Shown piece after piece: positions 29,848 to 47,002 of a stretch of DNA of 64,000 nucleotides. Below the pieces are notes generated by a model. The model made no database searches. It was not told where the DNA came from and worked only from the letters and a program-made list of their open reading frames with translations. Made by a program: the position numbers and the translations under genes. Each line of letters begins with the position of its first letter. Position 1 is the first letter of the stretch. Source of the DNA: Brachyspira sp. SAP_772 (GTDB lineage Bacteria > Spirochaetota > Brachyspiria > Brachyspirales > Brachyspiraceae); NCBI RefSeq assembly GCF_009755885.1, contig NZ_VYIX01000002.1, positions 62,001 to 126,000 of the forward strand. The letters run 5' to 3'.

Positions 29848-29893
29848 CCGCACGTATAAGAAGTTATAATTAAAGCATAGCATTACCGTGCGG
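29848..29893. repeat. Family C element, short (46-bp) copy
   Basis: Ends CCGCACG (29848-29854) and CGTGCGG (29887-29893) are exact inverted repeats. It corresponds to the outer parts of the 82-bp copies at 37.3, 52.9 and 53.3 kb with the middle missing. Confidence 0.65.
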
Positions 29894-31371: not shown

Positions 31372-31407
31372 ATAATTAACCTTTTATAATTTTAGTTAAA
31401 AAAAATT

Positions 31408-31683
31408 TTATGCAGTTGCTTCAAGCACAACACTTTCTAATATATCTCTATCTTCAACTGTTATAGTGCCTTGCTTTGTGTTATAGCCTTCTAAACTCAC
31501 CTCATATTGGATAGTGTCTCCTGTTTTATATGCATCAAAATATTTATATTCTCCGTCTATTCTTATAACAGCATTTGAAGGAGTAGAAACAATACTCACT
31601 TTATAAACATTGCCTCTTAAACTTAAATAATCTTTTACCTTTTGATTAACTCTCTCAATATTTCTGAAAAACTTCATCTTCAT
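31408..31683 (-). CDS. Small GTA protein with PEGA-like beta domain
   Basis: 91 aa. After a helical start, residues ~27-80 (VYKVSIVSTPSNAVIRIDGE...TIQYEVSLEGYNTKQGTITV) look like a PEGA or Ig-like surface domain. It overlaps the end of the preceding gene by 29 bp in another frame and precedes the tail tube gene by 36 bp, so it is part of the head-tail operon. It could be a minor tail or tube-associated protein; no family is certain. Confidence 0.65.
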   Translation of the reverse strand: MKMKFFRNIERVNQKVKDYLSLRGNVYKVSIVSTPSNAVIRIDGEYKYFDAYKTGDTIQYEVSLEGYNTKQGTITVEDRDILESVVLEATA

Positions 31684-32218
31684 AACTCCCAGTCATTATT
31701 TTAAAATTTATATAAAGAGAAAAACTCACCCCCCTAATAGATGAGAAATCATTAAACTGTCTCTTACTGTTTTCCACATCAAAAGTAGGAGAATCCCATT
31801 TAATAACAGGAGATAATGCAATTCTCTCACCCTCATCATTTAACTTTGACACCCAATAACGTGAAGCCTGATTTAACGCAATAGGTATCATAGTGTATGC
31901 TAAAAAAGATTCTCCAGCCTTAAGCTCTTTATAAACTTCTGCCTTTAAACATATATCATCAGTAAAACCTGCACTATCTCCTATATATGAGTTTCCTCCT
32001 TTACTCTCACCCTCAGATATAGTAGCCCATAAAAAAGATTTACTCATAGACTTAATATTGCCCAAACTAAAACAGTCAATTTTTAATTTGTCATCTAAAA
32101 GTTTATTAAGCTCACCATCACCTTTAACTTTATTTCCAGCAAAATCTATATAATCATCTGCCATAAAGTTCATAAAATTATCTAAAACATATAAAATGCT
32201 ATTTTTGAAATGTATCAT
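31655..32218 (-). CDS. GTA head-tail/tail completion-type protein
   Basis: 187 aa, about 21-22 kDa, in the position where phages encode tail terminator or completion proteins (after the connector, before the tail tube). Motif-poor. The N-terminal helix (MIHFKNSILYVLDNFMNFMADDY) and the beta-rich C terminus (RGVSFSLYINFKIMTGSY) are compatible with the gpU/terminator fold, but this is inference from position. A VSH-1 protein of similar size (Hvp22, from memory) may be its counterpart. Confidence 0.6.
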   Translation of the reverse strand: MIHFKNSILYVLDNFMNFMADDYIDFAGNKVKGDGELNKLLDDKLKIDCFSLGNIKSMSKSFLWATISEGESKGGNSYIGDSAGFTDDICLKAEVYKELKAGESFLAYTMIPIALNQASRYWVSKLNDEGERIALSPVIKWDSPTFDVENSKRQFNDFSSIRGVSFSLYINFKIMTGSYEDEVFQKY

Positions 32219-32263
32219 ATATATAAAACCCTATTTAAAAAATTTTTAAAAATAAAAAAATAA

Positions 32264-32641
32264 TTAAGGCTTTTTTATATCACCATCAAGCCTCACACTC
32301 TCATAAGATAAATCTCCAGAAATAAATGCTGATAAATCTTTTATAGCAAGTTCTTTTAGCCTTAAGCTCTCATTTCTTATAAAGTTTATTAAATCGCTGT
32401 TTGATACAAAATTAACAGTTAAAAGCCTTGCCACCTCATAGCATATATAATTTTTTATAGCTATATACGGAAGCTTATTTTCTTCAGTAGGCTCTGTATA
32501 GTTCATATTAAGAATTGTTTTTCTAAATTGTAGAGTATAATTTTTTAATTGACTTTCAATAAAATCTAAATCCATATTATCATAGTCAAACATTGTAAAT
32601 ATGCTTTTAAAATAATTTAAATCTGGTTCATATACATACAT
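32264..32641 (-). CDS. GTA head-tail connector-like protein
   Basis: 125 aa, mainly alpha-helical, soluble, with a conserved-looking central segment YIAIKNYICYEVARLLTVNFVSNSDLINFIRNESLRLKELA. Helical proteins of this size following the major capsid gene are usually head-tail adaptors (gp6/gp36-like). A good AAGGAA precedes the ATG. A family B and a family A repeat separate it from the upstream 103-aa gene. Confidence 0.6.
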   Translation of the reverse strand: MYVYEPDLNYFKSIFTMFDYDNMDLDFIESQLKNYTLQFRKTILNMNYTEPTEENKLPYIAIKNYICYEVARLLTVNFVSNSDLINFIRNESLRLKELAIKDLSAFISGDLSYESVRLDGDIKKP

Positions 32642-32698
32642 TTATATTTCTTCCTTTTGTTATTGTTTTAGATACTGAAACAAATATGTTTTATCAAT

Positions 32699-32890
32699 TG
32701 TTTGTTGTTCTTTTTCCCGCCGCAAAAAGAACCAAAAAGTGCAAGTGAAAATGGTATTAAATCTTATCAATTATATTTTAAATAAATTATTCAATCTAAA
32801 CATAAGCAAATATAGATTTCATTAAATAAAGCCTTTTTGCTTCTTTGTGGCAACAAAAGAAGTGGGGGTGGGGGGCTAGTCCCCGCAAAT
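32699..32890. repeat. Family B (32699-32746) plus family A (32826-32890) repeats inside the GTA
   Basis: The B copy (reverse) reads GTTCTTTTTCCCGCCGCAAA with AAGAACCAAAAAGTGCAAGT following. The A copy (forward, short) has CCTTTTTGCTTCTTTGTGGC and a GGGGGGCTAGTCCCC palindrome. They interrupt an otherwise compact virion operon. Confidence 0.78.
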
Positions 32891-32935
32891 AACAAAAAAG
32901 CCAAAATTGATAAAATGCAACCTTTTCAATATATA

Positions 32936-33238
32936 CTAAGCCTCAAGCGACTTTATCTTTTCCTTTAAACTTCTATTTTCCTCTTTCAAATAATTTATCA
33001 CATCATTAGGTTTCATCTTCTCACGTACAAGCTCCTCTGCCTCTTCTTTGCTTATTATTACAAAAGAATCCGTAAGAGAAATATTTAAATCACTCTCTAT
33101 TAAAACCTTGCACCTTCTCTCATGAACATCTCTAAAAAAATACCCCACCTTAGCAACAACATAATCATTAGCCTTAATATCTTTATGAACTATACTAGCG
33201 TCTACAAAATGAAGTAAAGACTTTTTATTATTCATCAT
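32936..33238 (-). CDS. Small GTA-operon protein with C-terminal coiled coil
   Basis: About 100 aa. The TTG-initiated longer form (33247) would place its own start within the GGGAGAG ribosome binding site, so an ATG at 33238 or 33235 is preferred. The N-terminal part is beta-like (ANDYVVAKVGYFFRDVHERRCKVLIESD). The C-terminal 30 residues form a heptad-patterned helix (NDVINYLKEENRSLKEKIKSLEA). It is located directly after the major capsid gene, behind a terminator-like hairpin. Unknown function; possibly a head-completion protein. Confidence 0.6.
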   Translation of the reverse strand: MMNNKKSLLHFVDASIVHKDIKANDYVVAKVGYFFRDVHERRCKVLIESDLNISLTDSFVIISKEEAEELVREKMKPNDVINYLKEENRSLKEKIKSLEA

Positions 33239-33267
33239 CTCTCCCAAAAAACATATATATAAAAAAA

Positions 33268-33298
33268 CAAGAGAAGAAAAAACAATTTTCCTCTCTTG
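33268..33298 (-). terminator. Terminator-like hairpin after the major capsid gene
   Basis: CAAGAGAAGAAAA (33268-33280) pairs with TTTTCCTCTCTTG (33286-33298) with one mismatch around a 5-nt loop. It is 33 bp after the capsid stop and could attenuate downstream genes so that capsid mRNA is the most abundant. Confidence 0.65.
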
Positions 33299-33331
33299 AA
33301 TAAAAATAATAATAAAAAAACTTAAATATGA

Positions 33332-34381
33332 TTAAGCATCTGCTAATTTCAAATCTATCTTACAGAAGCCATAAGGGTTAGAAGCTACTGTGCATCTCTT
33401 TGTTCTGCTTCTCCACAAATTGTTACCCAATATATCAACTTCTCTTATATCATGATTCAAATATACAACCTCTTTTATAGAAGCCATATCCAAAATATTA
33501 GAAGAAGTTGTAAACATATAAATAGAAGAACCTGTCCATATATCTGTAAGGTTTTCTAATTGATACTTCTGCTCAACTTCATGATCATCAGCAACTCTAA
33601 AAGCAGTACCCACAACTGTTATACCGCTTGTTACAGCATTAAATATATCTGGCTTAAATGCTTTATATTTGCCATCATTAGAATTGCCTATCATAGATAC
33701 ATAATTAGAAAATAATCTAAATAATCCCTGAAGCTTCACATAAACATCTATAGGTATCACTATATAAAGTTTCTGCCCATTGTTTTGCACTTCCATTTGG
33801 TCATTAAACAAATTGCCGCCTACAGCATAATTTAAATATTTTGCCAAATCTATAAAAGAACTAAAGAAATTATCAATATCAGTTTCTGTCCAAGAGCTTA
33901 TAGCCTTAGCAGTTAAATCTACTGTATTAGAACTTCCATACAAAGAAGCATCTGTAACTTTTGCAGCTAAATTTCTCTCTCTCAAAAGTCCAAGCCTAGA
34001 TACTAACTTTTGTGCTATATAATTTAATATCTCTTCTCCCGCTTTTTTCTCATCTTTAGAATAAAGTTCATTAATCTCTTCTATTCTGTTTATGTCTATG
34101 CCAATATAATATTCTTCAGGCTCCATCTTAAAAACTCTTGACTCATGTCTTGGATAATCATTAAATATATTAAGCCCACCCAAAGAAGTTCCGCCGTACA
34201 TATTTTTGAGATTAAAAGCAGTATTGTCTAAATCCCCTCCTATAGCACCTTGAGAAACTCCTACAAAAATCTCTGGTATATATTTACTTACAAAGTTTGT
34301 CTGCCCCATATATTTTGGAAGCTCTTGATTAATTATAGGAAAAAGTTTATTTTGTATACTTTGAAAATTTGGTACGCTCAT
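33332..34381 (-). CDS. hvp38: GTA major capsid protein (Hvp38-like)
   Basis: 349 aa, about 39 kDa, matching VSH-1 head protein Hvp38 in size and position. The sequence pattern fits HK97-fold capsids of Mu-like phages: an N-terminal helix that could act as a delta domain (FQSIQNKLFPIINQELPKYM), an E-loop-like segment (RHESRVFKMEPEEYYIG) and a long P-domain helix (KKAGEEILNYIAQKLVSRLG). It is preceded by the small decoration-type gene and a Mu gpI-like protease. VSH-1 packages random ~7.5-kb host fragments (known from the literature); this protein would build that small head. Confidence 0.8.
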   Translation of the reverse strand: MSVPNFQSIQNKLFPIINQELPKYMGQTNFVSKYIPEIFVGVSQGAIGGDLDNTAFNLKNMYGGTSLGGLNIFNDYPRHESRVFKMEPEEYYIGIDINRIEEINELYSKDEKKAGEEILNYIAQKLVSRLGLLRERNLAAKVTDASLYGSSNTVDLTAKAISSWTETDIDNFFSSFIDLAKYLNYAVGGNLFNDQMEVQNNGQKLYIVIPIDVYVKLQGLFRLFSNYVSMIGNSNDGKYKAFKPDIFNAVTSGITVVGTAFRVADDHEVEQKYQLENLTDIWTGSSIYMFTTSSNILDMASIKEVVYLNHDIREVDILGNNLWRSRTKRCTVASNPYGFCKIDLKLADA

Positions 34382-34402
34382 TATTACTCCTTATATAAAT
34401 TA

Positions 34403-34765
34403 TTAAATAGTTTTTAAAAGCACTTCTATATGAGAATTGGCATTACCTCCGCGTATAACTATACCAACCCCATTGCCATCTAATGACTTTTTAAATCCAT
34501 CAACTGAAGGCACAACTATATCGCCTGCAGCTAAACTCTCTGCCGCAACGCAATTAACATTTCCGCTGTAGCACACAGATATGCAATTAGACTTAAGTCC
34601 GAAATCCACATAACTATATGCATCTTCTAAGGCAACCCCAACAAAGGTAAACCCTTCCTCATATAAGGCATAAACTCCCTTTCCATCTTTATCTTTGATG
34701 GATACAGGAAAGCCTTTCTTTGGTAATTTATCTTCATCATTACCTATGCCAGATTTTATTATCAT
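34403..34765 (-). CDS. GTA head decoration/stabilisation-type protein
   Basis: 120 aa, about 13 kDa, beta-rich and Gly-rich (LAAGDIVVPSVDGFKKSLDGNGVGIVI), resembling small capsid-decorating proteins encoded just before the major capsid gene in many phages. VSH-1 has a 13-kDa virion protein (Hvp13, from memory) that it may correspond to. It lies 21 bp upstream of the capsid gene on the same strand. A family B repeat lies upstream. Confidence 0.65.
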   Translation of the reverse strand: MIIKSGIGNDEDKLPKKGFPVSIKDKDGKGVYALYEEGFTFVGVALEDAYSYVDFGLKSNCISVCYSGNVNCVAAESLAAGDIVVPSVDGFKKSLDGNGVGIVIRGGNANSHIEVLLKTI

Positions 34766-34837
34766 AGCGACTCCTAATATTATTTTATTTGTTTATATAC
34801 ACATAAATAACTATATTGTGTAATGTAAATTCTTTTA

Positions 34838-34894
34838 TTCAACTTTTTACCGCCTTCGCTGTGCGGACTTCGTCAAAGTTGCAAAAAGTGCAAA
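34838..34894. repeat. Family B intergenic repeat, reverse copy
   Basis: CAACTTTTTACCGCCTTCGC, then TGTGCGGACTTCGTCAAAGT and TGCAAAAAGTGCAAATG. Located between protease and decoration genes in the GTA. Confidence 0.78.
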
Positions 34895-34945
34895 TGTACT
34901 CTCTTCTGTCATAAAAAGAAATGGTGGCGTGGTAGCTAGACCATT

Positions 34946-35836
34946 TTATTTAAACATCCTTGAAATCTCTTCATACCTGTTTTTGCCCATAGCTGATAAA
35001 CTAACTCTCTCATAACCTCCTACTCCAATAGGAACTAAATCATTTCTCACTATAGACATTATTTCTTCTTTGCTTAAACCAGCCTTAAAAAGTTTTTTAG
35101 CCTTCACATAAGTATCACTCTCAGACTTTGAAGAGCATCTTACTGCATTCTGACTTTCTGCATATTCATTGCACCAATCACCATATGTGATAGCAGATAA
35201 ATTAGATTTTGATAAGCTATTTTCATCAATCTTAAACTTCTCTAAAAGTAAATCTATTATCATGTTTTGAAATACTTCATCATTTCTAAATATATTCAAA
35301 AACTCTTCTTTTGCTTTTTCTTTTGTTGCATCATCATTAAGCTTATTTAAAATGTTTTTTATGTTATTTATATACTCTTCATTAACTTCAATAACCCCGC
35401 TCGCACATAATAAATCAACACTCTTACTTGCAGGATATTCAACAGCAGCAATAGCCTTAATCTCACAATTCTCCCAATAAATAAACTCATCATCCTCTTT
35501 AACTTTTTTTCCAACCATTTCTATAGAAGGATAAAATGATTTTTTCTCAGTGATACTTTCATCAAACCATTCTATAGTGGCATATATTCCAATAGCTTCA
35601 TTATCTTTTTCTAATTTTAACACCTTACCAATAGCAGCTCTCTCTTCTTCTTCTTTATGCCCCATATAAACAAACACTTCAACATTCTTCTTTTCAAATG
35701 AAGATATAATCTCCTCTACATTCTTCTCAGTAATCTTATTAGTTTTAGTTTCTGAGAAAGTGTTTTTGGAAACAGCTATATATTGTTTAAAACTATCCCC
35801 AAGAATTTTATATTTTTTTACTTTGTTTTCTTCCAT
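34946..35836 (-). CDS. GTA head maturation protease/scaffold (Mu gpI-like)
   Basis: 296 aa. The first ~140 residues resemble the phage Mu protease I family: KNVEVFVYMGHKEEEERAAIGKVLKLEKDNEAIGIYATIEWFDESITEKKSFYPSIEMV, a pattern of strand-His-acidic cluster followed by the EW/SPS strands. The C-terminal half (residues ~150-296) is helical and charged, as expected for a scaffold domain that is removed during maturation. Position between portal and capsid genes fits. Two roles in one polypeptide is inference. Confidence 0.72.
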   Translation of the reverse strand: MEENKVKKYKILGDSFKQYIAVSKNTFSETKTNKITEKNVEEIISSFEKKNVEVFVYMGHKEEEERAAIGKVLKLEKDNEAIGIYATIEWFDESITEKKSFYPSIEMVGKKVKEDDEFIYWENCEIKAIAAVEYPASKSVDLLCASGVIEVNEEYINNIKNILNKLNDDATKEKAKEEFLNIFRNDEVFQNMIIDLLLEKFKIDENSLSKSNLSAITYGDWCNEYAESQNAVRCSSKSESDTYVKAKKLFKAGLSKEEIMSIVRNDLVPIGVGGYERVSLSAMGKNRYEEISRMFK

Positions 35837-36002: not shown

Positions 36003-37214
36003 TCAATCTTTATTTACTGAATGTTTAATCCTGAAATAATCACATTCTCCTAATAACCTTAAACTTTTAAAATTCAAATCAAAATATCTCTTCATAAAAG
36101 TGTCATTTATATTATTAATTATGCCTTCAACAATATCGCTTGCCATAAGTAATGCATTTGCCTGAGTGAGGTCTGCTAAATTTTTTGTTGCTCCCTTATT
36201 CAAACCTAATGCTTTAATGTCCACTCCCTTATTTTTAAAAAGTGTTGAAAGCATGCTATCTCTAAAGCTATACCATTCATTAGCATCTATACTCTCGATC
36301 TTTTCTATCTTTCCGTATTTTGAAATAAATATTCCGCCGCCATTATTAACAAAATTTCTTATCTCCCTCTCAACCTCTTTTCTCTTGCTGTCATTAAGCT
36401 CGCAATTTGACACAAAATTAAAACTATGCTCGCCTATATTTTTTAAGTTCCTATTAAAGCTATTGTCCATAGATTCAAGCACCTGCCAAAGCGAATAAGC
36501 ACTATACAAAAAAGGCTTACCTATTACATCGCCTGTAACATCTCCATAAGTAGAATAACCTGCTATTGCTAAATCAAAATTTATATTTGTAATAGTAGAA
36601 TTATTTTTATTTATTATGCTAATAGATTCAATCTCATCAATATCTTCTTTTGAAAAATTGAAACTGTTTATAGAAGAAACATCATAAAACTTAAAACCTC
36701 TTAAACCGTCAAGCTTACCCTTAAATCCATAATTCTTTGCAGATAAAACTTCTAACTTCGGAGTAAAAAAACAAAAACCATAAACCAAAGAATTATAAGC
36801 AGCATTAACTATTAAACTCTTAAGCCCGCCTGCTCTTTTAAATTGTTTGTCTATAAAATTATAAGCATTTCTTACCTTTACACTCTCAAAATATTCATCT
36901 GTCTTTTCTAATTCATAATTAAAAGAATTAAAAATACCCCTATAAAATTGAAGTATAGGCTCTAAATAAATAGAGTTCTCCATTCTTTTACAAGTTAAAG
37001 CCCACTTGCTTGGAAAAGAAAAATCATCTCCAAAATCTCCTCTATTAGAGTGCAAATCTGGAACCCCATTATAATAATTATTTGTAGATATTTTATTTAG
37101 CTCTTCATTTAATTTTTCTATCTCTAAAGTTTTATCTTTTAATTTTGTATCATAGCTCTCTATTATTTTCTCTATTACGGTTTGATTGTTTTGAGTTTCA
37201 TTATTCTCAAGCAT
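36003..37214 (-). CDS. hvp45: GTA portal protein (Hvp45-like, Mu gp29 type)
   Basis: 403 aa, about 46 kDa, the size of VSH-1 Hvp45. The core (SKWALTCKRMENSIYLEPILQFYRGIFNSFNYEL ... NNGGGIFISKYGKIEKIES ... LNKGATKNLADLTQANALLMASDIVEGIINNINDTF) follows the portal layout of Mu gp29/DUF935: wing domain, stem helix and a C-terminal crown. The portal ring is the DNA entry vertex. It is the first gene of the head module, 38 nt downstream of the 23-bp motif also found before the tail module. No terminase gene is present on either side. Confidence 0.75.
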   Translation of the reverse strand: MLENNETQNNQTVIEKIIESYDTKLKDKTLEIEKLNEELNKISTNNYYNGVPDLHSNRGDFGDDFSFPSKWALTCKRMENSIYLEPILQFYRGIFNSFNYELEKTDEYFESVKVRNAYNFIDKQFKRAGGLKSLIVNAAYNSLVYGFCFFTPKLEVLSAKNYGFKGKLDGLRGFKFYDVSSINSFNFSKEDIDEIESISIINKNNSTITNINFDLAIAGYSTYGDVTGDVIGKPFLYSAYSLWQVLESMDNSFNRNLKNIGEHSFNFVSNCELNDSKRKEVEREIRNFVNNGGGIFISKYGKIEKIESIDANEWYSFRDSMLSTLFKNKGVDIKALGLNKGATKNLADLTQANALLMASDIVEGIINNINDTFMKRYFDLNFKSLRLLGECDYFRIKHSVNKD

Positions 37215-37252
37215 TTTTTTATTCTCCGTTTTTTAATACTTTATAATATATA

Positions 37253-37275
37253 TAAAAAATATAAGTGATTATAAG
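37253..37275 (-). promoter_or_regulatory. Proposed GTA promoter/operator, head module copy
   Basis: 23 bp identical to 46509-46531. On the plus strand the core is TATAAGTGATTATAAG preceded by TAAAAAA. Read toward the portal gene it is CTTATAATCACTTATA, followed by a TATATATTATAA segment that can serve as a -10 box. The motif edge is 38 nt from the portal ATG, exactly as at the other copy. Confidence 0.7.
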
Positions 37276-37285
37276 TAAATATTCA

Positions 37286-37367
37286 CCGCACGCTAAACAA
37301 AATAAAAAATATTGATAAAATGAAAGTTATAATTTTTATTATAAACAAAGTATTTCTAACCGTGCGG
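37286..37367. repeat. Family C element, 82-bp copy
   Basis: Ends CCGCACG and CGTGCGG are exact inverted repeats. The interior is A+T-rich. Exactly the same length as the copies at 52921 and 53268. Confidence 0.72.
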
Positions 37368-37449
37368 AAAATGTGTGCTAAATAAACAAAAGCTTTGGCG
37401 GAAGTGATTTTTTAATTAGCTTTGATATAATAAATTTTTTAAGTTTGTA

Positions 37450-37544
37450 AATTTTTTATTGTTCTTTTTCCCGCCTTCGCACCCACAGGCACTTCCTTCG
37501 GTCGCTCTGCGGACTTCGTCAAAGAACCAAAAAGTGCAAGTGTT
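37450..37544. repeat. Family B intergenic repeat, reverse copy, long form
   Basis: GTTCTTTTTCCCGCCTTCGC...CACTTCCTTCGGTCGCTCTG...AAAGAACCAAAAAGTGCAAG. It carries the CCGAAGGAAGTGCC module in its loop. Confidence 0.78.
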
Positions 37545-37600
37545 TTTAGATTTATATATTAGAAATATGTGTTAAATAATAAATTTAATCTACCGCCCAA

Positions 37601-37876
37601 TTAGTTTGAATTGCTATAATAAAAATAATTGCTTCCAACTTGTATATTATACCAATTCTGCCAATGAGAAATTTTTATAGTAGCATCTTTATAGTTTTTT
37701 AATAAATCTTTTTTTGTTTTAACATCTTTTATAATATATATTGAAGGAGGAGGAGTTAAATCACAAACATTATTGTTCATACTACTACAAGATAAAAAAA
37801 ATAAATTAATCAATAAACTAATTAAAAGAACTATAAAAATCTTTTTTAATTGTATCAACAATATATTTAGTTTCAT
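37601..37876 (-). CDS. Outer-membrane lipoprotein, probable o-spanin (Rz1-like) of the GTA
   Basis: About 91 aa from the ATG at 37876 (GAGG lies 9 nt upstream; a start at 37891 has no binding site). It has a hydrophobic leader of ~20 residues and lipobox LFFLSC, then a short mature chain with TPPPSIYI, a Pro-rich segment typical of o-spanins. It overlaps the preceding membrane/coiled-coil gene by about 59 bp in a different frame, the arrangement seen for Rz/Rz1 pairs. It would bridge to the outer membrane in the last step of host lysis. The assignment is structural and contextual; no sequence family is claimed. Confidence 0.65.
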   Translation of the reverse strand: MKLNILLIQLKKIFIVLLISLLINLFFLSCSSMNNNVCDLTPPPSIYIIKDVKTKKDLLKNYKDATIKISHWQNWYNIQVGSNYFYYSNSN

Positions 37877-38147
37877 TATCCAAAACCTCATTGGTCATTT
37901 TATTAATAAGTGTTGTGCTGTTTGAAAAACTTTTTATTACACTAATTTGCTTTTCTTTAAATATTAAATCTTTATATAAAAAAGAATTACTGTTATTGAG
38001 AGATTCTATTTCTATTTCTAAGTCATCTATCTTTTTATTTTTACTTTGCAAACTTAAATTTAAAAATAAAATATAAGAGCAAACAATTAATACAAATAAA
38101 ATTATATAAGTATATTTATTTGTTAGAATCTTTATTATTTCTATCAC
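37818..38147 (-). CDS. Membrane protein with periplasmic coiled coil, probable i-spanin (Rz-like) of the GTA
   Basis: 109 aa. One N-terminal transmembrane segment (about residues 11-32), then heptad-rich sequence (SKNKKIDDLEIEIESLNNSNSFLYKDLIFKEKQISVIKSF). The layout is that of inner-membrane spanins. The start is GTG at 38147, overlapping the end of the putative holin by 32 bp. Its 3' end overlaps the lipoprotein gene. With holin and endolysin upstream it makes a complete double-membrane lysis set. Confidence 0.66.
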   Translation of the reverse strand: MIEIIKILTNKYTYIILFVLIVCSYILFLNLSLQSKNKKIDDLEIEIESLNNSNSFLYKDLIFKEKQISVIKSFSNSTTLINKMTNEVLDNETKYIVDTIKKDFYSSFN

Positions 38148-38403
38148 CTTTAATATTCCTTATTATCAAACTCAAATCCACCCCATACATTACAGAAGAA
38201 CATCCAAGCATAAATACTATTATTGATATACTTGCTTCTTTGCTAGGTATTGTCTTATTAAAATATACAACATAACAATATATTATTATGCCGATTGTAA
38301 AGGTAATAAATTTTGTAATAAGGCTTAATTTCTTACCTATGCCTTTAGAAGAAAATATCTCATCTACTTTTTTATTAAAATTTTTACTATTCATTACTAT
38401 CAC
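38116..38403 (-). CDS. Putative holin of the GTA lysis module
   Basis: 95 aa with two clear hydrophobic segments (about residues 29-48 and 57-76) separated by a short charged turn and a basic C-terminal tail (RNIKGDRNNKDSNK), a class II holin topology. The start is GTG overlapping the preceding stop (GTGA). Holins time lysis by opening the inner membrane to the endolysin. The choice between this and the 154-aa neighbour as the true holin is uncertain. Confidence 0.65.
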   Translation of the reverse strand: MIVMNSKNFNKKVDEIFSSKGIGKKLSLITKFITFTIGIIIYCYVVYFNKTIPSKEASISIIVFMLGCSSVMYGVDLSLIIRNIKGDRNNKDSNK

Positions 38404-38864
38404 CCTAACTTATTTGCAAAAAAAACTATGCTTCCTATAATTGTGCTAAGTGCAACTATCACTGCCCCAAGCCCTATTATTATATTTTTTATTTTTATTA
38501 TGCTCTTTGTTGTAATGCTGTCTTGTAATGCAGACTTTATTTCTTTAATGTCTGTTTTAGTTGAAGATATTTCTTCTTCTATAAAACGTCTTGTGTTTTG
38601 ATGCTCTTTTAATATATATTCTAATTCTCCTAATTTAAACTTTATATTATTAATATCTTTATGTATGTCTTTTAAGTTTTCTTTATTTTCACTCACATCT
38701 CTATTAAAACATTCAAGCATATTAATAATTCCGTTTCCATTTGGAGTGCCATTATTATTTATACCTACTATTGTTTCTATTTGAGTTAATCTGTTTTCAA
38801 AATTATTTTTTTTATTATAGCTTTTATTATAATTAAATATTTTTTTATCCAAACTATTATTCAT
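38400..38864 (-). CDS. Coiled-coil membrane protein of the GTA lysis module (XhlA-like layout)
   Basis: 154 aa. A long cytoplasmic helical region with heptads (residues ~45-120: NRDVSENKENLKDIHKDINNIKFKLGELEYILKEHQNTRRFIEEEI) ends in one C-terminal transmembrane segment (IIIGLGAVIVALSTIIGSIVFFA). This is the layout of XhlA-type holin partners found beside endolysins. It overlaps the next gene by 4 bp and follows the endolysin by 11 bp. Confidence 0.65.
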   Translation of the reverse strand: MNNSLDKKIFNYNKSYNKKNNFENRLTQIETIVGINNNGTPNGNGIINMLECFNRDVSENKENLKDIHKDINNIKFKLGELEYILKEHQNTRRFIEEEISSTKTDIKEIKSALQDSITTKSIIKIKNIIIGLGAVIVALSTIIGSIVFFANKLG

Positions 38865-38875
38865 AAAATGCCTTT

Positions 38876-39454
38876 TTATAGATTTTCTATTTTTTTGTAT
38901 CTTCTAATTCTATCCTCTAATCCATTGTACCCGCCATTAATTTTTTTAGTTGCTTTTCTTATATCATCAGTGCCTAAAAGACCTCTGTTTACCCAATAAC
39001 AGCAAGCAACATTAACAGCAACATTTCTATCTAAAAGCCAATCAGGATTATTAACCAAATCAATATTAAGAAGCCTTCCATAATTAATATAATTACTTTT
39101 TCCTGTAAGCTGTATTATTCCTCTTCCTCTGTATTTGTATCCCTCATCAAAATTATTGCCGAGTCTTCCTCCATATACCCTATTAGCAAGTGCTTCATCT
39201 CCTTTAGATAAAATATCTTTTGCCTCTTCAAGAGTACTAAAATATTTTGGAAATACTTTTACTAAAACTTCTGGTTTATATTTAAAACTCTCCTCAAGCC
39301 TTTTATAATTATAGCTTTCATGGCTTGTTTGAGCTAAAAACATCTTTACATCTTTTTCTTTTGTGATGTTATATGCAAGTAAATATTTTTTTAACACACT
39401 CTCCCAAGAAAAATCTATATTAAGAGCATCTAAATATTTTTTTATATCAATCAT
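38876..39454 (-). CDS. lys: GTA endolysin, GH19 chitinase-like lysozyme
   Basis: About 192 aa from the ATG at 39454, which is 6 nt after GAGGTG (a GTG at 39463 would lie within that site). GH19-type features: MFLAQTSHESYNYKRLEESF with the catalytic Glu, then FDEGYKYRGRGIIQLTGKSNYINYG and WVNRGL. Such enzymes cut peptidoglycan glycan strands. There is no signal peptide, so a holin is needed, and one is encoded downstream. VSH-1 has an endolysin gene in the same module. Confidence 0.87.
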   Translation of the reverse strand: MIDIKKYLDALNIDFSWESVLKKYLLAYNITKEKDVKMFLAQTSHESYNYKRLEESFKYKPEVLVKVFPKYFSTLEEAKDILSKGDEALANRVYGGRLGNNFDEGYKYRGRGIIQLTGKSNYINYGRLLNIDLVNNPDWLLDRNVAVNVACCYWVNRGLLGTDDIRKATKKINGGYNGLEDRIRRYKKIENL

Positions 39455-39464
39455 ATATTGCACC

Positions 39465-40064
39465 TCATAATATTTTTTTGTACTGAGCTTTTATATTGGC
39501 TCTAGTATCTTGCAAAGTATTTAATGTACTAATTTGATTTTCACTTAATAACCCTTGCTCTGCTAGACTATTAAGAACATCATCTAAAAGCTCAGCTCTC
39601 ACCCCGTCTAAGTTTTGAATGTATTGACTTTGTCTTTGCTGTATAATATATTCGTTATACTGTTCTACTGTTATTAATCCTTGCTCGTATTTCTCTTTTG
39701 TAGTCTTTTCTGTAATATACTTTTTACCGTTTTCATTGGTTACTATCTTTTTAGTTTTGTCTAATACTTCAAGCCCTCTTTCAATCATCACAATTAAATC
39801 ATCATTATTATTTTTATTTAATTCTCTAATTATACCGTCATCTATCATTTCATTGTCTTTAAGAGTTATAATCTTTTCTTGTACTTGCTGTTCTAAACTT
39901 TTTACAGAGCCGTCTTTATTATAAGCTCTTATATCTGTTTGGCTTAAATCATTACTATTATGCTCTTTTATAACTTCATTAGGCTGTAACTTAAAATCGT
40001 TAATGTTTTGACCTTCAACAAAATAACATTTATAAGTATTTTTATCATATATAACAAATATCAT
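39465..40064 (-). CDS. GTA virion/tail-fibre-associated protein
   Basis: 199 aa, about 23 kDa; may correspond to VSH-1 Hvp24 by size and position (from memory). The N-terminal ~55 residues are beta-rich (MIFVIYDKNTYKCYFVEGQNINDFKLQPNEVIKEH), a pattern seen in proteins next to tail fibres. The rest is helical and Gln/Asn-rich (TTKEKYEQGLITVEQYNEYIIQQRQSQYIQNLDGV). It starts 1 nt after the tail-fibre gene's stop; its AGGAGC binding site lies inside that gene. Confidence 0.7.
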   Translation of the reverse strand: MIFVIYDKNTYKCYFVEGQNINDFKLQPNEVIKEHNSNDLSQTDIRAYNKDGSVKSLEQQVQEKIITLKDNEMIDDGIIRELNKNNNDDLIVMIERGLEVLDKTKKIVTNENGKKYITEKTTKEKYEQGLITVEQYNEYIIQQRQSQYIQNLDGVRAELLDDVLNSLAEQGLLSENQISTLNTLQDTRANIKAQYKKIL

Positions 40065-40065
40065 T

Positions 40066-42432
40066 TTACGCTCCTATAATATCGCCTACTGTTTTTCCAT
40101 CTATTGTAAGCAGTTTATATATTATTATTAATCTATTTTTCACTCTAAACTCATTAGCAGTAGTATAAGCACGTGATAAATCTATGGCTATACCCCCTTT
40201 TGCCGTAGTAGTGCTAGTAACCGCAGAACTCCAGTTATTTGTATTATCAATTCCATATAAAACCCCATACCCATCACTAACAGCTATTAACCCCCTAATA
40301 AAAAAACTTCCTGTAGCATTCCTACCAGCATCACCTTGTATACCATTAACCCTGCCTACATTAGCCAAATCACCTTCCGTCCTAAAATACACACTTTCAG
40401 TATTGAACATTATTTGCCAAGTAGTAGTAATATTATACATTTTTTTGAACCATACAGAAGGCTCCTCATTAGGATTAAAATTACCTTCAACATCTGGATA
40501 TTGTACATAATATGGAGGTATCATATATCTTAAAGCTAAACTCTCTCCAAGCTCTTGGATATTAGTAACATTTTTATAAATAGGATTAACTGAGTAGTTT
40601 TTATTAGGTGTGAGATTTAAAGTAAATACATCCTCATAATTTATTTGACTTCCGTCTTGATATGCTATAATTAAATCTACAGCATTTATATTTAAAGCAT
40701 TTTGAGTAAAATAATATTTTACTGCTTTTCCGGTATTTGATGTAATCTCACTTGTATTTATATAAGATGATGATAAATTAAAATAATTTGCTAATGTACT
40801 TAAAAAACTATATGATGCAGTAAAAGCCCCTATAGCATCACCAGAACCTTTTATAGCACCAACTAACTTTACAGCTCCATTATTATTTTGAAGATTTAAA
40901 TAAGATAAAAAATTTGTGCTGCTGTAATTTCCTATTCCTAAAAAATAAGTATCTATATTTTTTAATTGTCTATTTTTTATATTTAATGTAATGTTATATG
41001 GTTTACGCTCAAAATCACTTAAATCTGCTTTTGATATAATTAAACTCTTTTGTATAAACTCAAATTGAAGATCATCACTTATACCTTCTATGAATATATC
41101 TCCATCATTAACAGTCCATTCATCACCAGATAAAACTTTCCAAAATATATTTATTATATTTAATATTTCAATACTTTCTATACAAGTTTCTATACTCTTT
41201 ATTACTAATGATATTGCTTTTGTTCCGTAAAAGGATTCAATATTATTTAAACTAGCATTAAATGAATAACTTCCGTCTTCTTGTTTTATAATGGATGCAG
41301 GATAATCATTTGTACCATCGGTAAGTAATAAATTAATAGTTTCTGGTATAGTATTTTTAAATTTAGGAAAATCATACTCTCCTGTTTTACAACCTAAATT
41401 AGTTTTAGAATTATCATACAAAATATTGTTTGCTAGATTTGACCCTCCTGTTGGAATTTTATTTTCTACATCTATTTTTAGTTTTTCTATGGCAAGCTGA
41501 ATATTATTTGTATTATTTCCAAAAGAAGTGTTACTGTCATCATAAAATATATTAGATGCTTTTGACAATATTTCTATTTTATTATCTCTTATTAGATTAT
41601 TCCATATAGGTTTTTCTACATAGTCTAAAACCAAATAAAATAATCCATTATTTACTATTATTTGATTTTTATAAAGTTTTTTAATGCCGTCAAACCAATT
41701 TATTATTTCAATCAGAGGTTTAATAAAATTATAAATATCATTTTCTTCGCTATAAATAAAATTTTCGCTTACTACAAAAAAATTATTTTCATACTCTAAA
41801 ATCTCACCTGCATTATAACTGCTACCAGTTTCTAAACTCTTAAAAGGTGTAATAATAGAACAATTAGACACTAAATAATAATCAGAATCATCGCTTAAAA
41901 AATCCTTATTTACTCTATACAAATAACCATTGTGTTTTATAATATCATTTATTTTATAATCAGTTTTACCATAATAGTTTTTTATAGGGTAATCTGTATC
42001 AAGGGTATTAATCTTTTTTGCTATATAATCAAACATCCAAGAGCTTAATGTTGTATTATAAGCTGTAATAGAATATTCAAATTGTTTATTTAAATGAGTT
42101 ACTGACAAAAAAATTATACTCTTAAAATTAACATCATTTTTTATTAGGTATATTTTATTTTCTTCTACCTCTTCCAATTCTCTAATGCAATTAATATCAT
42201 CTAATAAGAGAGGATACACCCTAACACCATCTAAAATAAACTCCATTTCCTCTAAAGCACCGTTTATGCCGTATCCTATATCAACACAAAATAATTTCTC
42301 ACCTTTAAAAACTTTTATCTGCTCATTATCCTCACTTAGTTGCAATGAATTATTTATTTTTTCTAATTTAAAACTATTCTCGCTTATCTTATATTGAAAA
42401 GGAGCTTGTAAATTATTTTCATTAAGAAACAT
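40066..42432 (-). CDS. GTA tail fibre/host-recognition protein (Hvp101-like)
   Basis: 788 aa, the largest virion gene here, rich in short beta segments and Asn/Tyr, with collagen-like or fibre-tip wording near the end (GRVNGIQGDAGRNATGSFFIRGLIAVSDGYGVLYGIDNTNNW). GGAG lies 9 nt before the ATG. In VSH-1 the largest protein is about 101 kDa; this homologue is somewhat shorter. It is flanked upstream by 577 bp of repeats. Role in binding recipient cells is inferred. Confidence 0.68.
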   Translation of the reverse strand: MFLNENNLQAPFQYKISENSFKLEKINNSLQLSEDNEQIKVFKGEKLFCVDIGYGINGALEEMEFILDGVRVYPLLLDDINCIRELEEVEENKIYLIKNDVNFKSIIFLSVTHLNKQFEYSITAYNTTLSSWMFDYIAKKINTLDTDYPIKNYYGKTDYKINDIIKHNGYLYRVNKDFLSDDSDYYLVSNCSIITPFKSLETGSSYNAGEILEYENNFFVVSENFIYSEENDIYNFIKPLIEIINWFDGIKKLYKNQIIVNNGLFYLVLDYVEKPIWNNLIRDNKIEILSKASNIFYDDSNTSFGNNTNNIQLAIEKLKIDVENKIPTGGSNLANNILYDNSKTNLGCKTGEYDFPKFKNTIPETINLLLTDGTNDYPASIIKQEDGSYSFNASLNNIESFYGTKAISLVIKSIETCIESIEILNIINIFWKVLSGDEWTVNDGDIFIEGISDDLQFEFIQKSLIISKADLSDFERKPYNITLNIKNRQLKNIDTYFLGIGNYSSTNFLSYLNLQNNNGAVKLVGAIKGSGDAIGAFTASYSFLSTLANYFNLSSSYINTSEITSNTGKAVKYYFTQNALNINAVDLIIAYQDGSQINYEDVFTLNLTPNKNYSVNPIYKNVTNIQELGESLALRYMIPPYYVQYPDVEGNFNPNEEPSVWFKKMYNITTTWQIMFNTESVYFRTEGDLANVGRVNGIQGDAGRNATGSFFIRGLIAVSDGYGVLYGIDNTNNWSSAVTSTTTAKGGIAIDLSRAYTTANEFRVKNRLIIIYKLLTIDGKTVGDIIGA

Positions 42433-42672
42433 ATAGATTTACTCCAAATATTTTTATTATGATTATTCATTATTCAAAGACTTGTTTCAAAACATATTGA
42501 AAAGAATTAAATATAAAAATGCATTTATTCAATGTATCGTACACAAAATGCAAAAACTTTTTTACTGCGGCATAAAAAAATTAAATAAAAAACTTATATA
42601 ACAAGATATAATTGTTTAGCTATATACTGAAATTTTTAAGTTTGTCAAAATCATATTTTTAATTTTAATTAT

Positions 42673-42738
42673 TTGCGGGGGCTAGCCCCAGAACCCCCAC
42701 TTCTTTTGGTAACCCAAAGAAGCAAAAAGACTGCATTT
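42673..42738. repeat. Family A intergenic repeat, reverse copy, short form
   Basis: GGGGGCTAGCCCCAGAACCC, then CCACTTCTTTTGGTAACCCA and AAGAAGCAAAAAGACTGCAT. Confidence 0.78.
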
Positions 42739-42767
42739 TATAAATATTTATAGCTGATAAAATTAAA

Positions 42768-42925
42768 TTATTCGCACTTTTCGCAAAGCGTGCCCGGAAG
42801 GGCGAAAACTTTGACGAACTCCGCATAGCGACCGAATGAAGTGTCTGCGTTATTAGTATAAAAGAAGCACAAAAATTGCATTCTTTGCACTTTTTGCAAC
42901 TTTTTGCGGCGGGAAAAAGTTGAAG
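42768..42925. repeat. Two family B repeats in tandem, forward
   Basis: First copy 42768-42850 (GCACTTTTCGCAAAGCGTGC...CGACCGAATGAAGTGTCTGC), second 42880-42925 (GCACTTTTTGCAACTTTTTG, then CGGCGGGAAAAAGTTGAAG). Arms of the second (CAACTTTTT and AAAAAGTTG) are perfect. Confidence 0.76.
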
Positions 42926-43009
42926 AAAAATTTCTTTTAAACAAAATATAGCTGTTTCAGTATATACTAAAAAATATTATTAATAGTTTTGAAATAAGTT
43001 TATAAACTT

Positions 43010-43888
43010 TTATTTGCTGCGTACCAAAAAATATAATGTGGCTTTTATACTATTACTGCCATTGTTTTTTAAAGCCAACACTGGTTTTTTATCTTCCAAA
43101 ATAGGAAAGCTCATTAAATTTGGAAGCCCACTAAAATTGCCTATTATGTTCTTTTGAAACTCGCCTCCAAAATATTTATAGCTCGCATAACTTCCAAAAT
43201 AGCCTATCAAAGGAACATTGTCAGAAATATCACTAAAAAGTCCAAATGAAGATAAGCTTATAAGGGCATTGGTATCTCCTTCAACTATTCCGCATACTTG
43301 TAAATACTCTAAATCTTCCCTCAAATTTAATGCCCAATTTTGATTGCCTTCTCCTGTTTTTGTTATAACTTCTTTTAATACAAAAGTAGAATTATTCTGA
43401 ATACTTTCTATTTTGTTGTTTATATTCTCAATATATGAAGGCACTCCAATAGTTCTTTCAAATATATCATTAAGAACGGAACTTGTTATTGATGTTGTTA
43501 CATATCTTCCGCTTACTATTCTAAATTTTTTACCTGCATAGATTGAGCTTAAAAAATAAGTACCCCTTAAGCCTTCTTTGTTAAACCAAAAAACTTCATT
43601 TTCTTTAGGCATATATTTATCATTTCCAATATCTCCTATTACAGGATTTAAATCTGCTATTTTTTTGTTTGTGTTTGGGTCTATTACTTGAAGTATGGAA
43701 TCATTCAAAAAAGAAAGTGAAGTGGTTAAAAGACCTGTGCTTACTGCAACATAATCAGCATTTTTGAATGGGCTTAAAAGAGGTATATCAAAATCTAAAT
43801 CATGAACCTCTTGTAATGCATTCTCATCTGTAAATGGATTATAGGTGTTTGCAAGCCCGAAATAATTTAATATAGTTCCTGATGACAT
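43010..43888 (-). CDS. GTA virion protein (Hvp32-like)
   Basis: 292 aa, about 32 kDa; matches VSH-1 Hvp32 by size and place in the tail module (from memory). No signal peptide or membrane segment. The beta-rich end (IKATLYFLVRS) and the central FVLKEVITKTGEGNQNWALNLREDLEYLQ element suggest a tail-tip or fibre component. AAGGAAA precedes the ATG. It is surrounded by repeats on both sides. Confidence 0.65.
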   Translation of the reverse strand: MSSGTILNYFGLANTYNPFTDENALQEVHDLDFDIPLLSPFKNADYVAVSTGLLTTSLSFLNDSILQVIDPNTNKKIADLNPVIGDIGNDKYMPKENEVFWFNKEGLRGTYFLSSIYAGKKFRIVSGRYVTTSITSSVLNDIFERTIGVPSYIENINNKIESIQNNSTFVLKEVITKTGEGNQNWALNLREDLEYLQVCGIVEGDTNALISLSSFGLFSDISDNVPLIGYFGSYASYKYFGGEFQKNIIGNFSGLPNLMSFPILEDKKPVLALKNNGSNSIKATLYFLVRSK

Positions 43889-43939
43889 AAAATTTCCTTA
43901 AGATAAATTTTTTTAATAATAGAATATATATTATTTATA

Positions 43940-44016
43940 TACTTGCACTTTTTGGTTCTTTGACGAAGTCCGCACCGCGAAGGCGGGAAAAAGAACAACA
44001 AAAAAAAATTGACAAA
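43940..44016. repeat. Family B intergenic repeat, forward copy
   Basis: GCACTTTTTGGTTCTTTGAC, GAAGTCCGCACCGCGAAGGC, then GGGAAAAAGAACAACAAAA. Directly downstream is TTGACAAACTTAAAA with TATATT 16-17 nt later, a promoter-like string close to that of the symporter at 53.4 kb. Confidence 0.78.
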
Positions 44017-44071
44017 CTTAAAATTTTTAGTATATTTTGAGATTAAATTTGGTATTTTTATAGTTTATGAA

Positions 44072-45673
44072 TTAGCTCTCAGAATAGGTTAAAAGACTCT
44101 CCAACTTCTTCCTTCGCTCTTCTTGATCATATAAATAATTAGTTCGTTTTACATTCATCTTTGATAACTCTGCATCAACTGTTAAATGATTGTTTTCAAA
44201 CTTATAATTAATGCTCCTCACATTCATCTCTACAGTCTTAGAACCACAGTCAAAAAAACATATAAACTTCTCATAAAGTATATTGCTTCTCTCTGATGTT
44301 ATTATAATATTTCTCTTGTCATATCCTGAAACATCAAATAAAGCAAAACCATTTTTACAGTACTTTCTTTGTGTATGCTCTCCATCTTCAAGTTGAAGCA
44401 ATGCACTAACATTACTTTCTTTGTCTTCCAAACCATCAGAAAAAAATATAGCTATCTTTGTAATATTATAAACATGATTGCATACATCTTTATAATATTT
44501 GTCTATATCAGAAAGTTTTACGCTGTTTTGCTGTTTATAGTTTGGATATTTTCTTGTCTCTATTTCATTATCAATGTCTATTATATCGCTTGAATAAACT
44601 TCATTTAAATGGCTTTCTATAACTGTAAAATCATTGAAATCTATTACTTTATAAAAATTGTTTGTAGGCTTTAATATACACTCTACACATTCATTTATAT
44701 TAATACCTGTTAAATTATAATTTATGTTTTTTAGCTGAACACTCTCTTTCTTCTCTTGATTTGTTAAAAACTGATAAGCATATTTATAGGCAAGGTCATA
44801 ATTTTCAAGCTTATAATTAAGTTCAAAAATATCTGTTTTTATGCCTATCTCTTTTTCTAATGGTATGGCAGGATATAGTTTATCTGCACCAACTATTTTT
44901 GGAAGAGCTCTATAAACTTCTTTATCCTCTCCATTTTCATCTGTTATGCTGTCTTTCATTTTTATTATGTATCTGCTAACTAAATCTGAAGAGTCCTCTG
45001 TATATTCACTCTCTGAAAAATGATTATTATGCCAATTAAGTTTTTTAGTTGGAATATTAGAAAACTCTTTAAAATAAAATGTATTATTGATATCAACTCC
45101 CCAAGAGTAACTTTTTGATATATTCTCTTCTACTTCATCGAGTATATCAGAAACATTCTTTCCGCTAAAAGACATTGTTATTTGTTTATCATTATTTAAA
45201 TCGATGTTTTTCTCATCAAAAATTATACCCATCTCTTCTATTTTTTCTCTAAGAGATAAAACTACATCAAGAACTCCGCTAGTAGATTCTAAAATTAAAT
45301 CCCCCTGTATGTACTGATGAAGAAGCCTTCCCCATATAGGTATAACTGTAACATTCAAACCAGAATTATCTATGCTTTCAATATAGCCTACAAACTTTTT
45401 AGTGCCATTTAAAAAATATTCTACTTTATCATTTATATTTATATTATCTAATGGAATATTAAAACTTATTTTGCCAGAGCTTCCGCCTCTTTTATTTAAA
45501 TTAAACTCATAGGTTTTATAAAAATTTTCTGTATATATTATCTCTCTTTCAGTATAATATTTATTATTATAGTATGGGATTATTTTTATATAGCTTCCCG
45601 TTTCTTCAAATTTTTTGTACTCACTTGGAGGAAGCTTATATATACCGCTTAAAAAATGATAAGGCATAATCAT
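44072..45673 (-). CDS. GTA tail hub/baseplate-like protein (Hvp60-like)
   Basis: About 533 aa (~62 kDa) from the ATG at 45673, which has AAGGGGTG upstream and overlaps the previous stop (ATGA). A longer start at 45715 lies inside the upstream gene. The first half reads like a gp27/hub-type tail protein (KRGGSSGKISFNIPLDNININDKVEYFLNGTKKFVGYIESID; VSDILDEVEENISKSYSWGVDINNTFYF). It may correspond to VSH-1 Hvp60 (from memory). The C-terminal part is beta-rich. Confidence 0.72.
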   Translation of the reverse strand: MIMPYHFLSGIYKLPPSEYKKFEETGSYIKIIPYYNNKYYTEREIIYTENFYKTYEFNLNKRGGSSGKISFNIPLDNININDKVEYFLNGTKKFVGYIESIDNSGLNVTVIPIWGRLLHQYIQGDLILESTSGVLDVVLSLREKIEEMGIIFDEKNIDLNNDKQITMSFSGKNVSDILDEVEENISKSYSWGVDINNTFYFKEFSNIPTKKLNWHNNHFSESEYTEDSSDLVSRYIIKMKDSITDENGEDKEVYRALPKIVGADKLYPAIPLEKEIGIKTDIFELNYKLENYDLAYKYAYQFLTNQEKKESVQLKNINYNLTGININECVECILKPTNNFYKVIDFNDFTVIESHLNEVYSSDIIDIDNEIETRKYPNYKQQNSVKLSDIDKYYKDVCNHVYNITKIAIFFSDGLEDKESNVSALLQLEDGEHTQRKYCKNGFALFDVSGYDKRNIIITSERSNILYEKFICFFDCGSKTVEMNVRSINYKFENNHLTVDAELSKMNVKRTNYLYDQEERRKKLESLLTYSES

Positions 45674-46470
45674 ATTAAAACACCCCTTCTGTATCTTATA
45701 TAGGCATTTGTGCAAGTTTGATTGGTATCTAAATAAAATATATTATCTCCAACATTAAGCTCTGGCCTTATACCTTTATAATCATATACAATCCCATTTA
45801 CTTTTAAAACTTCTCCGTCAAAATCAACTGTGCATCTAGTGGCATTTATATTATTTATGTTGGCCTCTATACCGAAATTTTGCTTGTTTGCAAATAAGAA
45901 ATAAAGCTCATTTCCTATTATATTATCAAACTCCAAACTAAATGACACAGCAGTAGGAACTAAACTTAAAGATTTATAATATATATCCTGTTTATTTTCA
46001 TTTGTGATATTTAATTTATAGGTGTCTTCTTTTTGCCTTAGAAAAGTTTTGTCTAACGATTCAAGAGAAATGTTTATAACGCCTAAATTATTTATATATT
46101 TTACAGTGTATCCTCCAACAGAAGTCATTATATGTTCTGCCTCATAAATCTCATTTTCAAACTCTATTCTTATAAAATATCTATTTGAGTTATTTGAAAG
46201 AATCATAGTTGTATATTTTGTATATTGAGACTCTATTTTTATCCATTTTCCTAAATTATCTTTATATTCAAAAATAGGTATTGCAAAATCAAGCCTTCTC
46301 CCTGATGATATGATTCCTATACCAGATTTTATTGATGTGTATTTATTGCCTTCTATTGTTTTTAAGTCTAGTTTTATATCTGATAATTTTATCTGAGAAC
46401 TTAAATCTATTAAATCCAAAATTTCTTCATTATGTCCATTTCTAACAATTAACTTAAAATTATATGACAT
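45670..46470 (-). CDS. GTA distal-tail-type protein (Hvp28-like)
   Basis: 266 aa, about 30 kDa, in the position of distal tail proteins that precede the hub protein. It is beta-rich throughout (MSYNFKLIVRNGHNEEILDLIDLSSQIKLSDIKL...). GGAGAG precedes the ATG. It is the first gene of the tail-lysis module and lies 38 nt from the proposed GTA promoter. It may correspond to VSH-1 Hvp28 by size. Confidence 0.68.
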   Translation of the reverse strand: MSYNFKLIVRNGHNEEILDLIDLSSQIKLSDIKLDLKTIEGNKYTSIKSGIGIISSGRRLDFAIPIFEYKDNLGKWIKIESQYTKYTTMILSNNSNRYFIRIEFENEIYEAEHIMTSVGGYTVKYINNLGVINISLESLDKTFLRQKEDTYKLNITNENKQDIYYKSLSLVPTAVSFSLEFDNIIGNELYFLFANKQNFGIEANINNINATRCTVDFDGEVLKVNGIVYDYKGIRPELNVGDNIFYLDTNQTCTNAYIRYRRGVLI

Positions 46471-46508
46471 ATTCTCTCCAGATATGTTATTTTCTTATAT
46501 AATCTATG

Positions 46509-46531
46509 TAAAAAATATAAGTGATTATAAG
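46509..46531 (-). promoter_or_regulatory. Proposed GTA promoter/operator, tail module copy
   Basis: 23 bp identical to 37253-37275 and at the same 38-nt distance from the start codon (46470). Similarity continues beyond the identical core toward the gene (ATAATCTATG against ATAATATATA on the plus strand). Confidence 0.7.
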
Positions 46532-47002
46532 AATTGTTAATAAACTGTTGATAAGTGCATAACAATTATCAACTTACTAACTAAATTTTAAAATAAATTT
46601 TTTATAAATTTTATTTTTGAATTTATGAAATTTAGGAAATTAAATATTTGTTTATAATAAATAACTTATCAACATCTTATAAAATAGTTTTTTTAGTTTC
46701 TTCTTATATACAAAACTTATCAACATATTAACGCTATAATAATAACAATAAATTTTTAAAATTTAAAAATATATTATATTAATATATAAAAGCATCTAAT
46801 GGTTTAAAAATTGAATTCAAATTTAAAAAATTACTTAATGAATTCAATAATTAAATATGTTGATAAGTTGTTTATAATGTTGATAAGTTTAAATAAATAT
46901 TATAAATTCTTAATTAAAATTTACATTATAAATTTATAATATAAATTTATATTATAAATTCATTTTTTGAATTCAAAATTAGATTTTTTAAAATTTGTAT
47001 GT

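Follow-up and report, generated by a model that had tools for sequence, protein, structure and literature searches.

The two elements and the genes behind them

The window, i.e. the whole 64-kb stretch of DNA that was analysed, carries the head, tail and lysis clusters of the gene transfer agent (GTA), a virus-like gene-shuttling particle, known as VSH-1 or BhGTA (Brachygtaviriformidae). The head operon opens with a portal gene (36003..37214, minus strand) that has relatives throughout the genus but no family match. It continues at 29995..35836 (minus strand) with protease-like (34946-35836), cement-like, major-capsid-like and tail-tube-like genes, which have weak family matches (PF18906 at 1e-5 for the tail-tube-like gene). 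The tail/lysis operon begins with a distal-tail-like gene, dit (45670..46470, minus strand), and the rest of it (37601..45715, minus strand) includes a GH19-type endolysin at 38876-39463. The names portal and distal tail, used in the original prediction, are assignments by gene order. For dit they are backed by weak fold matches to phage baseplate chains (phage 80alpha baseplate and monocin tip); for portal, the sequence-family search gave no meaningful match and the predicted structure was too poor to use.

It had been proposed that both operons are preceded by one and the same 23-bp motif. This is indeed the case, since positions 37253-37275 and 46509-46531 both read TAAAAAATATAAGTGATTATAAG, and each copy lies 38 nt before a minus-strand start codon, at 37214 and 46470 respectively. 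The equal distance is true of these two copies, but the interval between motif and ATG is not conserved in relatives, where the start of the motif lies about 49-81 nt (portal) or 45-68 nt (dit) from the ATG. As predicted, no third copy was found in the window, either exact or with one mismatch to the core, and matches with two or three mismatches were close to chance level (11 in all against 6.5 expected). In the own genome as a whole (G000), the exact 22-mer is present exactly twice. A third exact 16-mer, at G000:C1:40699, was rejected as a promoter and attributed to chance because it lies inside an 830-aa ORF.

In the transcribed orientation, the element runs CTTATAATCACTTATATTTTTT-N8-TATAnA. 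The head-operon copy (37254..37275, minus strand) covers the -35 region and is made of the direct repeats CTTATAAT (37275-37268) and CTTATATT (37265-37258, both minus strand) with a 10-bp period. It is followed after 8 nt by the -10 box TATAAA (37240..37245, minus strand), invariant in five own-clade genomes. The tail/lysis copy (46510..46531, minus strand; CTTATAATCACTTATATTTTTT) has its direct repeats at 46531-46524 and 46521-46514 (minus strand) and, also after 8 nt, the -10 box TATATA (46496..46501, minus strand). These -10 boxes are the TATA-like segment in which the similarity had been seen to continue.

The consensus of 74 sites is (C/a)TTATAAT(c/t)(a/n)CTTATA(T/a)TTTTT(A/G)N7TATA, in which positions 2, 4-6, 8, 12 and 14-16 are invariant. 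The -10 box stands at a fixed offset, with TATA positions 31-34 matched at 67-70 of the 74 sites, and the 8 nt between motif and -10 are likewise fixed in relatives. The two CTTATAWT direct repeats sit, with their 10-bp period, where a -35 box would be expected; 17 bp upstream of the -10, the corresponding hexamer reads TCACTT and not TTGACA. A palindromic reading of the element was set aside as the weaker one, since self-identity over 99 distinct sites reaches 84% at the 10-bp direct register and 59% for the best palindrome. Moreover, the same substitutions are allowed in both repeat units, namely A/T at base 7 and T to A at base 3, and the repeats are perfect at sites before the large-terminase gene (TerL), e.g. 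CTTATAATTACTTATAATTTTT.

Other boxes were observed as well. GC-rich ACCGTGCGG-type boxes, in an AT-rich genome, occur in the window at 29885, 37286, 37359 and 52922; they recur upstream of portal in the other clade and, in the own clade, upstream of TerL. Beside the dit promoter, 341 AT-rich bp (46546-46886) contain five perfect TTATCAACA boxes (DnaA-like), conserved in the own clade. We considered these as a GTA origin and rejected the idea. Similar box groups are found beside the same LuxR gene (pair) in several relatives with dit elsewhere (in G007 they straddle contig ends); because the boxes travel with the LuxR gene pair, they look like the chromosomal oriC. The GTA tail promoter abuts this putative oriC in the own clade.

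Copies across the genus and at unlinked genes

The comparison covered 26 Brachyspira genomes, with record names including B. pilosicoli, B. hampsonii, B. innocens and B. alvinipulli. The element lies upstream of the GTA structural operons in relatives too: before portal in nearly all, and before dit in most, of the GTA-bearing Brachyspira examined, and at both genes it is conserved genus-wide while the surrounding spacer diverges. In the second clade dit forms a separate locus, in an operon that carries a tape-measure-like gene, and is still preceded by the element. In that clade portal is also separated from the rest of the head operon, and a second copy, in many genomes behind a terminator-like stretch, precedes the protease-like gene. 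Split operons usually have one copy per half. The diverged genome G019 has altered versions of the element, with the same -10 spacing at portal and at the protease-like gene. The portal reading frame is broken in two genomes, by two stops at G002:C10:21080-22290 and by one at G020:C12:6238-7461, which suggests GTA decay with persisting promoters, or assembly errors.

A genome-wide search, proposed with the original prediction as a way to find further GTA pieces, showed copies before the small and the large terminase as well as before the dit operon. The small-terminase gene (TerS, L047) was reached via one-mismatch matches of the first genus scan. It is present in 23 of the 26 genomes; in the own genome it lies at G000:C2:348844 and is followed by TerL (Terminase_3, PBSX type), both about 240 kb from the window and both preceded by diverged copies. 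Where TerS and TerL are separated by 23-30 nt (loci from G018, G020, G002 and G019), TerL has no copy before it; where the gap is at least 213 nt, TerL usually has its own. The exceptions (L087/L095, L089/L096 and L105) are loci at which one of the two sites scores poorly. At own-clade TerL the -10 box is of poor quality and lies only a very short distance from the ATG. A tape-measure-like gene of 369-398 aa carries a C-terminal motif like FAFGTTGYTIPEGGSAIVGEMGAE and has a single weak PHROG match. In the own clade it stands behind TerL, in the second clade behind dit. In the own genome it is found at L093:10516-11655 (G000:C2), downstream of TerL and unlinked from the tail operon of the window.

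The element also precedes a gene with an HTH_36 profile (PF13730) and PHROG matches to phage replication initiation, both in the own clade and in most genomes of the other. In the own genome this gene is at G000:C2:833590-834633, with the site CTTATAAATCATTATAAAAATT-N8-TATAAA, and its 22-mer and -10 box are identical in five own-clade genomes. Some sites near the HTH gene point away from it without a clear ORF. Strong copies with no clear ORF behind them were seen near intact or decayed HTH genes (L036, L037 in G018, L050/L216 in G002, L217 in G020); such ORF-less copies possibly mark decayed genes or a small RNA. In some genomes (L189, L191, L195), a separate copy of the element precedes a radical-SAM/SPASM gene located near the HTH gene. 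A few matches in relatives precede nothing recognisable (L198, L199/L203). A variant site, TTAATAATCTCTAATATTTTTT-N8-TATAAA, occurs at L203:3944 and L199:828. The L203 site has a second lysis/tail-fibre-like cluster and a tyrosine recombinase in its vicinity, and belongs perhaps to a related prophage using the same type of promoter.

The element is specific. Among 84,980 species genomes, the exact pattern gave 37 matches, of which 33 were in Brachyspira; the other four look accidental (three antisense inside ORFs, and one in Rhizobium without evident meaning). In a scan of Spirochaetota, 23 of 296 genomes were positive, all of them Brachyspira. Abundant copies at unrelated loci, named beforehand as the finding that would speak against a GTA promoter, were almost absent from these scans. 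G001, which is without portal, TerS and the HTH protein, gave no element match at E<=1e-4; the phyletic control rests mainly on this one genome, the only well-assembled GTA-less Brachyspira available. The viral contigs (viral_contigs) gave no match to the exact pattern, so no parent phage was found.

When the own genome was scored with model R1, dit, portal, TerS and TerL took the top four ranks, followed by noise, a ranking that is partly circular because R1 includes some own-clade TerS and TerL sites. A model built only from the portal and protease-gene sites of the other clade also ranks portal and dit first in the own genome, and in relatives it recovers the sites of dit, TerS, TerL and the HTH gene. 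With a matrix from the other clade, the scores are 40.8 for portal and 32.3 for dit, values for which no chance occurrence is expected in 3 Mb. TerS (12.6) and HTH (13.8) fall in the range of 12-14, expected by chance 3-6 times per genome, and TerL (7.6) is below the level expected a few times per genome. For these three diverged own-genome copies, the support comes from position and from conservation in near relatives.

A proposed GTA-dedicated promoter and its possible reader

The reading of the element as a promoter, made from the window alone, holds up in silico with the conservation, the fixed -10 spacing, the gene association and the specificity described above. The sequence has the features of a class II type activator-dependent promoter: no consensus -35, a putative site over the -35 position and N8 to TATA in nearly all sites. 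The fixed spacing, the absence of a -35 consensus, the tandem repeats, the single copy per unit and the genus-long conservation argue for a promoter needing a dedicated factor. We therefore propose, with a probability of roughly 85%, that the element would be the regulatory half of a GTA-dedicated promoter, common to the separated units and read most likely by an activator or sigma-like factor. A protein of this kind would recognize the two head-to-tail CTTATAWT units, one helical turn apart, which would stand in for the -35 box, 14 bp before a standard -10. It might then recruit RNA polymerase simultaneously to the genes for head, tail/lysis and terminase and to the replication-initiator-like gene. 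From the sequence we infer promoter function, positive action and the reading of all copies by one factor; that the element "fires" the GTA pieces together, as first proposed, would follow from these.

A sub-case of this explanation is that an alternative or phage-type sigma factor reads the element as its own -35 plus -10. The long invariant block in the -35 region, at fixed spacing to the -10, is compatible with such a factor, and GTA activators elsewhere have sigma-factor-like parts (GafZ, PMC11150451). However, the -10 box is TATAAT-like, as is normal for sigma-70, a repeat of two units at 10 bp would be unusual for a single sigma, and no candidate sigma was identified, so that we regard this sub-case as possible rather than probable.

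The element might instead be an operator for a repressor (phage-repressor-like or LexA-type), the promoter being otherwise ordinary and the GTA kept off until DNA is damaged. VSH-1 has been described as inducible by mitomycin (PMC3163572), and a repressor, too, would be expected to block at the -35 position that the site overlaps. Its half-sites are, however, direct and not inverted repeats, and there is no near-consensus -35 left to mask. Nor did the own-genome scan show a further set of sites of the kind an SOS box would give, its matches falling to noise below the four GTA units. Repression in this form seems less likely than activation.

It is less probable still that the HTH protein (G000:C2:833590-834633) is the master activator and regulates itself through its own copy of the motif. 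This solitary chromosomal gene does carry the motif in the two clades as described above, its product is predicted to bind DNA (PF13730), and GafA of Rhodobacter binds its own promoter and has an N-terminus that was compared with DnaA (PMC9638019). On the other side, no homologue was found in G017 (99% complete) or G019 and the copy in G018 is broken, while motif sites persist in all three genomes; the PHROG matches, moreover, point to replication initiation and not to regulation. The protein was therefore rejected as a universal regulator, and is probably itself regulated. A LuxR-like membrane protein encoded next to dit (47760-48722) was also rejected as the regulator, since it is genus-wide, including in the GTA-less G001, and does not track the GTA. 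Finally, chance or a dispersed repeat without regulatory role, to which the AT-rich sequence and the chance-level number of three-mismatch matches to the core might point, is hardly credible, being contradicted by what is seen across the genus: a conserved element, specific to Brachyspira, at a fixed distance from a -10 box and tied to particular genes.

Under the preferred reading, a dedicated promoter shared by the separated units, the signature provides a testable definition of the VSH-1 regulon, including its unlinked genes, and a means to find missing pieces. It adds independent support for the idea that the unlinked TerL and TerS may package GTA DNA, nominates the tape-measure-like and replication-initiator-like genes as GTA parts, and could serve as bait for isolating the regulator. 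More tentatively, an undescribed, lineage-specific class of regulator might read the tandem CTTATAWT. Its regulon would include a phage-type replication initiator, so that GTA induction would also trigger phage-like DNA replication or amplification, and each operon split would retain a new promoter copy, so that a scattered virus genome would stay one regulon. The data suggest that one switch may turn the scattered GTA pieces on together, a case of a domesticated phage, broken into pieces, that is able to stay under one control.

Relation to known systems

In class II activator sites built from tandem direct repeats (PhoB box, SARP boxes) and in T4 MotA-type promoters, repeats of about one helical turn replace the -35 box at a fixed distance from a sigma-70 -10. 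The arrangement of the Brachyspira element is alike, whereas its sequence is unrelated.

Regarding VSH-1 itself, the title of Stanton et al. 2009, as cited in PMC3163572, refers to a divided genome, and an unlinked single-copy terL has been proposed as part of the Brachyspira GTA (PMC9662315). To this literature our analysis adds an element that terS, terL and a replication-initiator-like gene share with the structural operons. No description of this motif, of a shared promoter of the Brachyspira GTA or of Brachyspira transcription starts was found in the searchable literature, a scope outside which the original VSH-1 papers lie.

By analogy only, the situation can be likened to two GTAs of other bacteria. 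The RcGTA of Rhodobacter capsulatus has dispersed loci under one dedicated activator, GafA, which binds around -35 and at its own promoter (PMC9638019); dedicated activation of dispersed GTA loci would be the common point. In RcGTA, however, putative GafA sites are reported at only two of the three unlinked late loci, whereas here the copies are near-identical 22-mers of an unrelated motif. In Caulobacter, GafY, GafZ and IHF provide GTA-dedicated activation at the -35/-10 region, with an activator-dependent -35 (PMC11150451), as might also be the case here. There, the GafZ element lies between -35 and -10 and is palindromic, in contrast to the tandem direct repeats that lie over the -35 position in Brachyspira.
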